A stretch of DNA of 64,000 nucleotides, from contig NZ_CP024845.1 in assembly GCF_002788215.1 (NCBI RefSeq), forward strand, positions 620,001 to 684,000, written 5' to 3'. The notes under the pieces are model-generated. The model worked only from the letters and a program-made list of their open reading frames with translations. It was not told the origin of the DNA and made no database searches. How positions within the stretch are numbered: position 1 is the stretch's first letter; every line of letters starts with the position of its first letter. The position numbers and the translations under genes are program-made. Of this stretch, positions 23,788-26,711 are shown in pieces. Origin of the DNA: Halohasta litchfieldiae (GTDB lineage: Archaea; Halobacteriota; Halobacteria; Halobacteriales; Haloferacaceae).

Positions 23788-24348
23788 CTACTCAGAAAGA
23801 AATGCCCGCCGCAACTGATCGATGTACCCCGGTTCCCACCCCTTCGTCTCACAGTAGTACGTCAACACAGCGTCGACATACTCACGACTCACAACCTCGT
23901 AGTCGGCCAGCACACACAGTAGATGCGGCGTCGTAAACAGCCGGTTCCGGTCTGCAAGTGCCAGCGAGACGAACAGGTAGTTGGTCGTGTTGAACTCGTC
24001 GGTCACGAACATCGCCGCCTCCAGTTCGTTCGCAAGCCAGATGCCATGTGATTCGCCCTGATCCAACCCGTAGTTGAGGGGCTCTGCGATGGCTCCGTCG
24101 ACATCGTGGGTCGTCAGATAGTTAGCGGCCTGCAACACCAGCTCCGCGGCCGCCGCGAGGAGATCATCACCACCAGTCGCGTCGGTCACCTCGCCGAGTA
24201 CGCTGTCCGGAACGTGGACATCGTATACGGACAGCACTGTCTTCAACGGATCTGCGCCAGTTGGGGCCATCGGGCGGCTGTCGACGACTGGCGTCGCAAG
24301 GTTCAGCAGGACGTTCGTGTCGACGACGATGGTGGCCTGCTTATCCAT
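23788..24348 (-). CDS. PIN-domain toxin (putative VapC-like ribonuclease)
   Basis: 186 aa from the ATG at 24348, which overlaps the end of the antitoxin gene by 8 nt. It has an N-terminal VVDTNVLLNL with Asp10, a central Glu in the VPDSVLGEV block, and DQGESHGIWLANEL followed by MFVTDEFN, giving the acidic cluster of a PIN nuclease. Longer than typical VapC (about 130 aa), with an extra C-terminal helical part. Pair order antitoxin-toxin with overlap is standard for type II modules. Confidence 0.75.
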   Translation of the reverse strand: MDKQATIVVDTNVLLNLATPVVDSRPMAPTGADPLKTVLSVYDVHVPDSVLGEVTDATGGDDLLAAAAELVLQAANYLTTHDVDGAIAEPLNYGLDQGESHGIWLANELEAAMFVTDEFNTTNYLFVSLALADRNRLFTTPHLLCVLADYEVVSREYVDAVLTYYCETKGWEPGYIDQLRRAFLSE

Positions 24349-24730
24349 GCGTCTCTGCGTCCGTCGACTCCTCGGGTGTCCACTCCGGAACGTCACCCTC
24401 GTAGAACTCCTTGTCGGTCGGCAGCGAGCCCGCCAACTGCGGCTCTGGCGGCTCCCGGTCCAGCGACTCTCGAAGGAGCTTCATCCGCATTGCTGCCTCG
24501 GTGCCGAGCACCGATTCGACGACATCGAACGCGACCTCCTCGGCGTAGTAGGCGTCAGCCAGTCGACCGCGGAATGTCCGATCACTCGCCACCTCCTCGA
24601 TCTCGCTTTGCAACGCCTCGGTGAGGAGTTGCGTCCTAGAAACGCCACGAAGGTCGGCGATGGTGTCGGCCTGCTCAACCAGCGACGATGGCGCATTGAA
24701 GTCGACGCGGGTTTTGTCCTCTGCAACCAT
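24341..24730 (-). CDS. antitoxin of the PIN module, ribbon-helix-helix-like N-terminus
   Basis: About 129 aa (ATG at 24730; one at 24736 is equally possible). Residues about 6-45 (TRVDFNAPSSLVEQADTIA and the next helix) have the strand-helix-helix pattern of CopG/RHH DNA-binding proteins. The acidic remainder would wrap and block the toxin. It probably represses its own operon. It ends inside the toxin gene. Confidence 0.65.
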   Translation of the reverse strand: MVAEDKTRVDFNAPSSLVEQADTIADLRGVSRTQLLTEALQSEIEEVASDRTFRGRLADAYYAEEVAFDVVESVLGTEAAMRMKLLRESLDREPPEPQLAGSLPTDKEFYEGDVPEWTPEESTDAETHG

Positions 24731-24861
24731 AGTCATGTGTAGATCTTACACACAAATAGCTCTGGTGGTGAGAATCGGTCGGAAGCATTGGGCCGATACA
24801 CCCCATCTCACCGACACGATTACCTGCTGATTGCAGACGAAAACTGCTTAAAAAGACGTAG

Positions 24862-25455
24862 CTACCCATCCAGTCGACCAGCCAAGAAGACCCACTCCTC
24901 ATTGCCATCCAAATTCACAGTACCGGTCCAGTTGTCGGTGATCGTGAACCCAGCAGCCGCCAACTGCCCTCGCGTCGCGCCCGCACCAGCGATCTGCCAC
25001 TGCATTTCGACACCGGTATCGAGCCAGTCCGGATTCGTCCCACGCCAGTCGACAGTCCCCGCTGTGACGAGCACCCGCCCGCCGGGACGCAACACACGCG
25101 CGAACTCATCAATGACCGCCTGCTGCTCCGCGGCTAGAATATGAATCAGCGAATGGTACGCCGTCACCGCATCGAACCCACCAGCACTGAACGGGAGCGC
25201 CGCCATATCACCCTGCACGACTGCCGCAGGCGGGGCGATGTCGACTGCCCCGCGGAGCTGTCCCCGCGAGAAATCAACCCCAACGGTGCGCACCTCGCGG
25301 CCCACTGGCAGGCCCTACCCGGCATCCAGAACCTGCGCTGATTCCCCGACCGAATCGAGACACTGGGCGCAGATGTCGAGTCTCGGACCCTCCGTCGACC
25401 GTGCGGCGGTATACGCCGCCGCGACCTCGTCGTACCCCCGACGAACAGCGTCCGA
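24862..25455 (-). pseudogene. class I SAM-dependent methyltransferase with internal stop
   Basis: Reading from about 25455: conserved N-terminus VRRGYDEVAAAYTAARST, then the SAM-binding strand VLDAG, then TAG at 25315-25317, and the same frame continues (GLPVGREVRTVGVDFSRGQL, GDMAALPFSAGGFDAVTAYHS, FARVLRPGGRVLV) to TGA at 24862. The stop falls in the glycine-rich loop that should read D-x-G-x-G, so readthrough would not rescue function simply. The start codon region is AT-rich and unrelated, so the true 5' end is lost. A second N-terminal fragment of the same family lies at 26595-26711. Confidence 0.75.
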
Positions 25456-25643
25456 TAGAAACGACGGGCACGAATTGACTATTCTGAGAGACAATTGTAT
25501 CGGTAGAATATATCCCTTCCAAAATTCGACGACAAGAATCGTGTCCGAGATCATCTCGGGAACCAGCCCAAAGTACACCGTGATCCGGGAAGGTAATTAT
25601 TCAATAACTTATTAAGCCTCGTAGAACATCACTCTAGTATACC

Positions 25644-25778
25644 ATGAGCCAGAAAGCCCGCGAAATAATGCTTGAAGACGAGCGTGAGAATTACGACGCA
25701 TACGTCGCAATGGGCGAAGTCCAGCTCATCGAGGACGAACTCGACGGCTCGGCTGACTCAATCCAGCTTTCCCAATAA
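25644..25778 (+). CDS. 44-aa acidic small protein, possibly antitoxin-like
   Basis: ATG at 25644, TAA at 25776-25778. Strongly acidic, two predicted helices, no hydrophobic segment. A TATA-like ACTTATTAAG at about 25603-25612 lies upstream. It converges with the Fic/Doc-like gene and their 3' ends overlap by 21 bp. The small acidic form beside a toxin-type gene suggests an antitoxin role, but convergent orientation is unusual and I do not recognise the family. Confidence 0.45.
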   Translation: MSQKAREIMLEDERENYDAYVAMGEVQLIEDELDGSADSIQLSQ

Positions 25779-26531
25779 TTCTTCGAACCGTTTGTGGCTC
25801 GGCTGTTTGTACTCGTAGTTAGAGACGCCGTAGAACACCTCCACAAAATAGCGCTGCCAGTTCTGAAACAGCTCGTCGCGTCTCCACAGCGTATCAAACC
25901 GAACGTCGACAATAAACCGCCGGAGTAGCTTCGAGCGAAAAATAGCGATCTGATACCGATCTCCGGACCATTCAATTCGATTAATTCCATTTAGAACGAG
26001 TGCTGTATTGAGCGTCGACATCGCTGTACGATGATTTGCATCAGGAAAGAAATGAAGGCCAGCAATCGCTCGGACCCAATGTGCACATTGGTCGACTAAC
26101 GGTTCTGCATCCGGAAATTCGGTCATAACGCGGTTCAGATCACCGTTTCGAACACTACTAATCGAGTTGTTCACCGCCTGTCGAGATCCGTTGTTGAGAT
26201 CATATCGATGATCACGATTCGTCAAATAGCGACGATTTCTCCATTTGATATCCTCTGGATCGATTTCTTGAAAATTAGAGAGGTGCTTCTGGGTTGCAGG
26301 TAAGTGTCCAACGAATCCAGAAACACCGTATTTCGACTCAGTATAGCTGACGCCCGTCTCAGAGAGGGCAAAGATATCTTCAGTACAGCTGAATAACAGA
26401 TCGTTGCGTTCCAACTCCCAGCAGTTGGTACGGATCACATTTTCACGGTATTGGTTTTGACTGATGTCTTTCGGAGAGGAGGCACCGTGGCGAAATAACC
26501 AGAGAAGAATTGTCTGTTCGTGTGAGCTCAT
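25758..26531 (-). CDS. Fic/Doc-family protein with N-terminal winged-helix region
   Basis: 257 aa from the ATG at 26531 (an in-frame ATG at 26579 is less likely). The motif HFFPDANHRTA (160-170) matches the Fic/Doc active-site loop H-x-F-x-(D/E)-(A/G)-N-x-R-(T). Doc-type DAN is present, with His in place of the usual Lys or Gly. Residues 1 to about 70 look like a winged-helix domain (SSHEQTILLWLFRHGASSP). Fic enzymes AMPylate, Doc phosphorylates EF-Tu; which applies here is unknown. Base composition is AT-richer than neighbours. It sits between two fragments of the same methyltransferase family. Confidence 0.7.
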   Translation of the reverse strand: MSSHEQTILLWLFRHGASSPKDISQNQYRENVIRTNCWELERNDLLFSCTEDIFALSETGVSYTESKYGVSGFVGHLPATQKHLSNFQEIDPEDIKWRNRRYLTNRDHRYDLNNGSRQAVNNSISSVRNGDLNRVMTEFPDAEPLVDQCAHWVRAIAGLHFFPDANHRTAMSTLNTALVLNGINRIEWSGDRYQIAIFRSKLLRRFIVDVRFDTLWRRDELFQNWQRYFVEVFYGVSNYEYKQPSHKRFEELLGKLD

Positions 26532-26594
26532 ACTGTAGTCAACCAAACTCGGCGAGAAAATGGTTCTTTCGTCCACCACATCTAGGACCCACCC

Positions 26595-26711
26595 TCACGC
26601 GAAGCGAGACCCATGGGCGCAGGTAGTCCGTCCCAGACACTTGGTCGACCGTGCGGCGGCATATGCCTCGGCCATATCGCCGTATCCCCGGCGAACGGTG
26701 TCTTTGTCGAC
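26595..26711 (-). pseudogene. N-terminal fragment of a methyltransferase related to 24862-25455
   Basis: Reading from about 26711: DKDTVRRGYGDMAEAYAAARST, then unrelated residues and TGA at 26595-26597. The core VRRGY-x(5)-A-x-AYxAARST is the same as at the N-terminus of the broken methyltransferase at 25455. The rest of that gene is absent. The frame is open for some way upstream without a clear start. Confidence 0.55.

Follow-up and report, generated by a model that had tools for sequence, protein, structure and literature searches.

The window studied here, a stretch of 64,000 nucleotides from the genome of Halohasta litchfieldiae (NZ_CP024845.1, positions 620,001 to 684,000), carries at 25644–26531 a Fic/Doc-like gene and a small acidic gene that meet tail to tail. 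The question raised by this locus is whether the two genes form a toxin–antitoxin module and, if so, whether the small gene acts as a protein or as an antisense RNA. Comparative sequence analysis and structure prediction suggest that the pair is very probably a type II toxin–antitoxin module in convergent orientation, with a flipped antitoxin gene.

The putative toxin gene lies on the minus strand at 25758–26531 and encodes 257 amino acids from its ATG start, an in-frame GTG at 26579 being an alternative start that is also open. The protein was matched by Pfam Fic (E 0.0023, under the curated cut-off) and by NCBIfam TIGR01550 DOC_P1 (E 4.5e-5, 23.6 bits, under the cut-off of 38.65 bits); the short Fic paralogue of the same genome likewise stayed under that cut-off at 27 bits. 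PHROGs returned a Doc-like toxin (E 7.9e-6) and a transcriptional regulator (E 3.3e-5), and the Fic sequence profile matched Doc 3k33 at E 0.0017. In the AlphaFold model, for which 47 homologues were given as input and which reached a mean pLDDT of 90.4, residues 85–235 adopt the Doc fold and align with 121 of the 124 residues of P1 Doc 3kh2 (VIA-align, rmsd 2.7) at a Z of 10.5, a value that helical proteins can reach through common arrangement alone. Foldseek with the same model gave nothing at E up to 0.001, Doc surfacing later by VIA-align; PADLOC matched neither the Fic protein nor its partner, the window Fic protein as a lone query found no relative in the genome and viral contigs, and the A2 query found none in the viral contigs. 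Judged by the predicted model and the profiles together, the protein belongs to the Fic/Doc (Fido) fold superfamily.

The Fic motif HFFPDANHR (residues 160–168; 26028–26054, minus strand) extends to HFFPDANHRTA at residue 170. Compared with the published Fic/Doc signature HxFx(D/E)(A/G)N(G/K)R (PMC11065993), every position fits save the Gly/Lys place, which is occupied by His167, and since this is the only deviation the protein was filed under a Doc-like subfamily, outside the standard members. All 47 aligned relatives carry His167 and, with it, the whole N-H-R-T stretch, and Phe162, Asp164, Asn166 and Arg168 are unchanged among them as well. The assignment as a Fic/Doc-like gene with a His in its motif, made in the earlier note, is borne out. 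In canonical haloarchaeal Docs this place is held by Lys at all 27 loci, of 30, in which the motif was found. The first, catalytic His of the motif is present in 46 of the 47 relatives, the exception being L098 (G283:C4), which reads QFFPDANHRT with Gln for the catalytic His, though a convergent partner persists there, 45 bp away from the stop codon of Fic. The His at the Gly/Lys place, with which another chemistry may go, and L098 both count against reading the protein as an enzymatic toxin; the family offers a natural test of the role of this His.

About residues 1–72 of the Fic protein (26316–26531, minus strand) constitute an N-terminal winged-helix domain, delimited by sequence profiles and structure comparison. 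Its sequence profile matched the haloarchaeal PhiH1 repressor-like structure 3b73 at E 4.3e-7, model residues 1–76 aligned with the same structure at Z 10.9, and MarR-type structures aligned with residues 1–72 at Z up to 11.7, which upholds the proposal of a winged helix fused to the start of the gene. Among 51 readable pairs, 24 have a long Fic protein (≥230 aa) with the winged helix, 26 a short one (<200 aa) without it and one falls between. Of 14 long-form Fic genes scanned upstream, 12 showed no inverted repeat; of the exceptions, L072 has one inverted repeat and L074 is a masked-base artefact.

The putative antitoxin gene (25644–25778, plus strand) encodes 44 residues with a pI of 4.05, and its reading frame overlaps that of the Fic gene by 21 bp at 25758–25778, a segment that contains both stop codons; the convergent acidic partner and its overlap had thus been described accurately. 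AlphaFold predicts helices at residues 3–15 and 17–24 with a break at Asn16, followed by a disordered acidic tail (pLDDT 96–97 over residues 1–20, pTM 0.46). Across the family the partners measure 29–44 aa with a median pI of 4.24, and in 51 of 60 the pI is below 5.5. A BRE/TATA-like stretch, placed by eye, occupies 25604–25615 (plus strand), about 29–40 bp 5' of the partner ATG, and over 60 partner starts A+T reaches 80–83% at −34/−33 and 82/78% at −28/−27, with a rich region around −28 to −24. By the spacing rule that we take to apply, this A+T-rich signal would fit a BRE/TATA promoter giving a leaderless haloarchaeal mRNA.

BLAST with the small protein had suggested an orphan gene: over 170 family genomes it returned the 44-aa protein itself and one match at E 0.077, with nothing convincing in the other 169. 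Pfam gave no match for the three partners tried, and PHROGs left the partner unmatched. The orphan reading was overturned by clustering of neighbouring genes and by profiles, and it is by profiles only that conservation of the partner becomes visible. Clustering of the open reading frames around 62 Fic loci, which are not independent since some nearly duplicate each other and one sequence is shared by L004 and L100, revealed a small acidic opposite-strand reading frame at the Fic 3' end. A profile built from a seed of 14 such partners and run against 14,077 six-frame peptides from these loci gave 58 matches at E<1, one per locus and all 58 on the opposite strand. In 57 cases the 3' end of the match falls within −33 to +78 bp of the stop of Fic; in the remaining one, L067, where the Fic gene is broken, it falls at −189. 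A convergent small reading frame at L075 was seen by eye, that at L109 matched at E 2.7 at +98, and both were recovered by a larger profile. Overall, a partner-like convergent reading frame is present at 60 of the 62 loci, the exceptions being L070, at a contig end, and L091, with a masked stretch; absence of the partner wherever the Fic gene is intact, the outcome that the earlier note had named as decisive against its proposal, was thus not what these loci gave.

Because the seed had been chosen by position, two further profile checks were made. A profile that left out the window's own sequence and the two relatives closest to it placed the 44-aa frame first among 1587 six-frame window peptides (E 3.5e-7; runner-up E 2.2). 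A profile of 24 short-form partners, run on 31 loci (the window and L051–L080), gave matches with E no higher than 1 at 18 of them, all 18 at the convergent position and with no match at any other.

Counting the genome of the window itself, a Fic relative was found in 25 of 170 family genomes and, among 392 genomes sampled from the order, in 52, with Natrinema, Halococcus, Haloferax, Halorussus and Halorubrum among the named carriers, a patchy distribution that fits a mobile module. In the 392 genomes, co-occurrence over the haloarchaea held up, 61 of 69 Fic places being paired with a partner, convergently in every case. The eight unpaired places comprise four divergent genes, one masked stretch, two fragments and one further piece of a gene already counted as paired; the four divergent genes, one of them frame-broken, face an abutting small reading frame, to which the partner profile gave E 5.8e-4, 0.43 and, for two, no match. 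From the other side, 25 of 85 partner places (matches to E 3.5e-5, the weaker ones from 3.9e-4 being uncounted) have no Fic match within reach, and at L148 and L152, among the solo-partner loci fetched, Fic remnants occupy the expected place. Fic places with internal stops keep the partner frame in 10 of 11 cases by hand count, G115 being weak. Such one-way loss, in which the partner is found without Fic and not the reverse, is what toxin–antitoxin logic predicts. No other toxin was recognised beside the solo partners among the matches listed, save at L157 (G376:C4:132400-138500), where a solo partner of the window's clade converges with a different Fic protein 73 bp away (Fic_N E 3.8e-20, Fic E 1.4e-18); either one Fic was replaced there by another or the arrangement is due to chance.

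Canonical Docs (TIGR01550), present in 124 of 234 genomes of the order, provide a comparison within the haloarchaea. At all 27 loci with the motif, among the 30 best-scoring, a small same-strand reading frame stands just downstream, with a tail resembling DSNRDIYDALENE, the frames having been selected by a Y/F-x-x-L tail. The profile of the convergent partners is related to that of these frames (hhalign P 1.7e-5 over 21 columns, with the conserved Tyr aligned), a value reached by none of 60 column shuffles. As in the window pair, a Doc-like enzyme has a small frame at its 3' end and the partner profiles are related; unlike it, the canonical Docs have the partner on the same strand, carry an NKR motif and sit on a separate branch of the Fic tree. 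In a quick, unrooted tree with long branches, one branch (97*) sets apart the 53 haloarchaeal NHRT sequences and another (94) sets apart 28 canonical Docs. Given the profile relation, we regard the convergent partner most readily as akin to a haloarchaeal Doc antitoxin, with its gene flipped, the antitoxin role of the same-strand frames being itself putative. These frames (L241–L270), 39–74 aa long, look like an undescribed antitoxin family in toxin-first order; five of them gave weak matches only in two libraries, and one matched the C-terminal half of TIGR02609 doc_partner weakly (E 0.022).

Convergent small frames also accompany other NHRT proteins. At Methanoperedens-type loci such a frame, different in sequence from the haloarchaeal one, abuts or overlaps in nine of nine cases (L216, L217, L219–L225), the motif there being given by the search since the FPDANHRT pattern was the query, and it is absent at L218, from a groundwater archaeon. 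A second haloarchaeal group, with LPNANHRT, has it at three of three loci, in the third case next to a Fic gene that is broken. The Y-x-x-L cores of the window partner and the Methanoperedens partners look alike by eye, but homology between them stays unproven, P 0.19 being no better than with shuffled columns.

Whether the small gene would work as RNA or as protein can be approached through its pattern of change. Over 20 pairs with no member in common, selected by Fic identity, pN/pS was 0.24 for the partner against 0.32 for Fic, and the partners differed at codon positions 1, 2 and 3 by 19, 12 and 42%, a pattern that shows selection on the partner at the protein level; judged by these substitutions, it evolves as a protein-coding gene. 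The idea that antisense RNA acts over the 21-bp overlap, by a type I-like mechanism in which the partner transcript enters the Fic gene and silences the toxin mRNA, alone or with the protein, is not supported and quite improbable. A type I antisense system would be expected to have a conserved overlap and no need of a protein, and the pair, judged on coding overlap and on selection of the partner, does not fit this: coding overlap exists in only 5 of 60 pairs, one of which has a broken Fic gene (L067), and the 21-bp coding overlap is a peculiarity of the window. The available part of PMC11065993 reports, moreover, that an early stop or nonsense mutations in the antitoxin of a Sulfolobales Doc pair abolish protection. 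In favour of an RNA contribution, stops lie 1–25 bp apart in 51 of the 60 pairs, so that the two transcripts are likely to run into each other at their 3' ends and RNA may contribute alongside the protein, and convergent type I modules are described in Bacillus in the portions of that literature available, as in yonT/SR6, with 3'-end overlap and an RNA as antitoxin. There the antitoxin is RNA, whereas here a conserved protein partner is present.

The partner could also be a substrate of Fic, modified for instance on its invariant Tyr, in which case the pair would be a regulatory or signalling unit and no addiction module. The Tyr is indeed present in all 51 aligned partners and in every one of 53 distinct partner segments, in which comparison it also served to set the register, yet Phe replaces it in 2 of 27 of the related frames behind canonical Docs (L241, L250), partners persist without Fic in the proportion given above, and the patchy distribution suits a mobile module, so that we hold this reading to be quite improbable. 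Still less credence is due to the proposal that the winged-helix protein is a regulator with an enzymatically dead Fic domain and the small gene an anti-regulator: the PhiH1-like winged helix speaks for it, but the 26 of 51 pairs devoid of that domain retain both motif and partner, and the motif residues listed above stay invariant. Two adjacent protein-coding genes that are inherited together characterise type II toxin–antitoxin systems, and such are found here, Fic and partner co-varying in a tree-like manner (r 0.86; reached in 0 of 1000 permutations), to which shared ancestry alone supplies part.

The type II reading has an experimentally validated parallel. In the Sulfolobales, SiL_0731/SiL_0730 form a convergent pair of Doc and arCOG10132 antitoxin, for which the available text of PMC11065993 gives toxicity, protein-level neutralisation and co-purification, together with a model in which antitoxin Asp39 contacts toxin K81/R82; convergent Doc modules are hence already known. 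The likeness lies in a Doc-family toxin with a small antitoxin, convergently arranged and archaeal; the Sulfolobales toxin differs in keeping the motif Lys (K81/R82), and that text describes no winged helix for it. Our literature search for haloarchaeal or convergent Fic/Doc antitoxins, which covered subscription papers and preprints poorly, found convergent Doc pairs described in PMC11065993 only. Against that precedent, what appears new is the invariance of the motif His, the placing of a DNA-binding domain on the toxin and the wide spread among haloarchaea. That the partner is homologous to the antitoxins of the Sulfolobales is at most a candidate relation: their Y-x-x-L cores are alike by eye, while hhalign with these short profiles gave P 0.32, which 26 of 60 shuffles reached. 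The query for that family was viral SMV1 gp44, taken as the 44th CDS of HG322870; its homologues fall in virus groups named in PMC11065993, and this Sulfolobus virus antitoxin found no match among plasmids.

P1 Phd/Doc shares the toxin fold; Phd, however, binds DNA through its N-terminal domain and is encoded in the same operon, whereas the window partner belongs to a convergent family of 29–44 aa in which Pfam recognised no such domain in three partners. A segment of Phd is helical on the toxin Doc (PMC4803016), and the kink predicted in the helix of the window partner has its parallel in EcFicA and Phd, whose helices PMC5033356 reports to be kinked. Class I FicTA systems (VbhTA, EcFicTA) resemble the pair in joining a Fic enzyme with a small helical partner, kinked in EcFicA; they differ in gene order and in the second motif Arg, absent from the window Fic (Met171), and their antitoxin motif [S/T]xxxE[G/N] has a counterpart, Ser or Thr four residues before the Glu of Glu-Asn, in 1 of 53 distinct partners.

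On the type II reading, we infer that the Doc-like Fic protein is toxic and probably arrests growth by moving phosphate or a nucleotide from ATP onto a cell protein, which might be a translation factor or another protein. EF-Tu is the target of P1 Doc. The 44-aa partner, transcribed from its own promoter, would fold onto the toxin as a kinked helix and block the active (nucleotide) site, its acidic end being placed near His167 and Arg168 of the toxin; loss or degradation of the partner would set the toxin free. Since the winged helix is on the toxin, autoregulation, if any, would run through the toxin, and half of the family does without that domain. The partner is accordingly a putative Doc inhibitor of about 30 residues, the layout lets antitoxin and toxin be transcribed separately, and roughly half of the family carries its DNA-binding domain on the toxin, against the textbook scheme, a feature testable in model haloarchaea.

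More tentatively, the convergent order might be an old and stable archaeal design, occurring in the Sulfolobales Docs and in at least three NHRT groups, in which the antitoxin has its own promoter and lacks a DNA-binding domain, control would come from the toxin winged helix and the meeting of transcripts, and the motif His would denote a chemistry unlike AMP transfer or Doc phosphorylation; as a whole this remains a speculative proposal. Operon-based toxin–antitoxin searches, and gene callers that skip reading frames of 30–45 codons, would miss such a class. In four plasmid records the Fic gene is annotated as a hypothetical protein in all four and the partner is listed in one, that gene table being incomplete.

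The genome of the window holds a second, short Fic copy (G000:C1:1933393), which matches a plasmid gene of Halobacterium sp. DL1 without a difference over 166 aa, an identity implying that the module moves between lineages. At that copy (L004; G000:C1:1930500-1936500), whose counterpart is L226 on the DL1 plasmid CP007061 of another family, Orc1/Cdc6 genes adjoin, and an ISH3 transposase lies near the module on CP007061.

Elsewhere in the window, two overlapping reading frames at 23788–24736 (minus strand) resemble a VapB/VapC-type pair, the upstream one with a weak PSK_trans_fac match (E 0.027) and the downstream one PIN-like by eye, with no Pfam match. An 89-bp direct repeat, 74% identical between its copies at 25364–25452 and 26614–26702, flanks the module. 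Both copies fall within reading frames that resemble the 5' ends of one SAM-methyltransferase, one of these frames being followed by a frame-broken methyltransferase domain at 24862–25305 (Pfam Methyltransf_11, E 1.4e-13), and the module may lie in or beside a duplicated methyltransferase gene.
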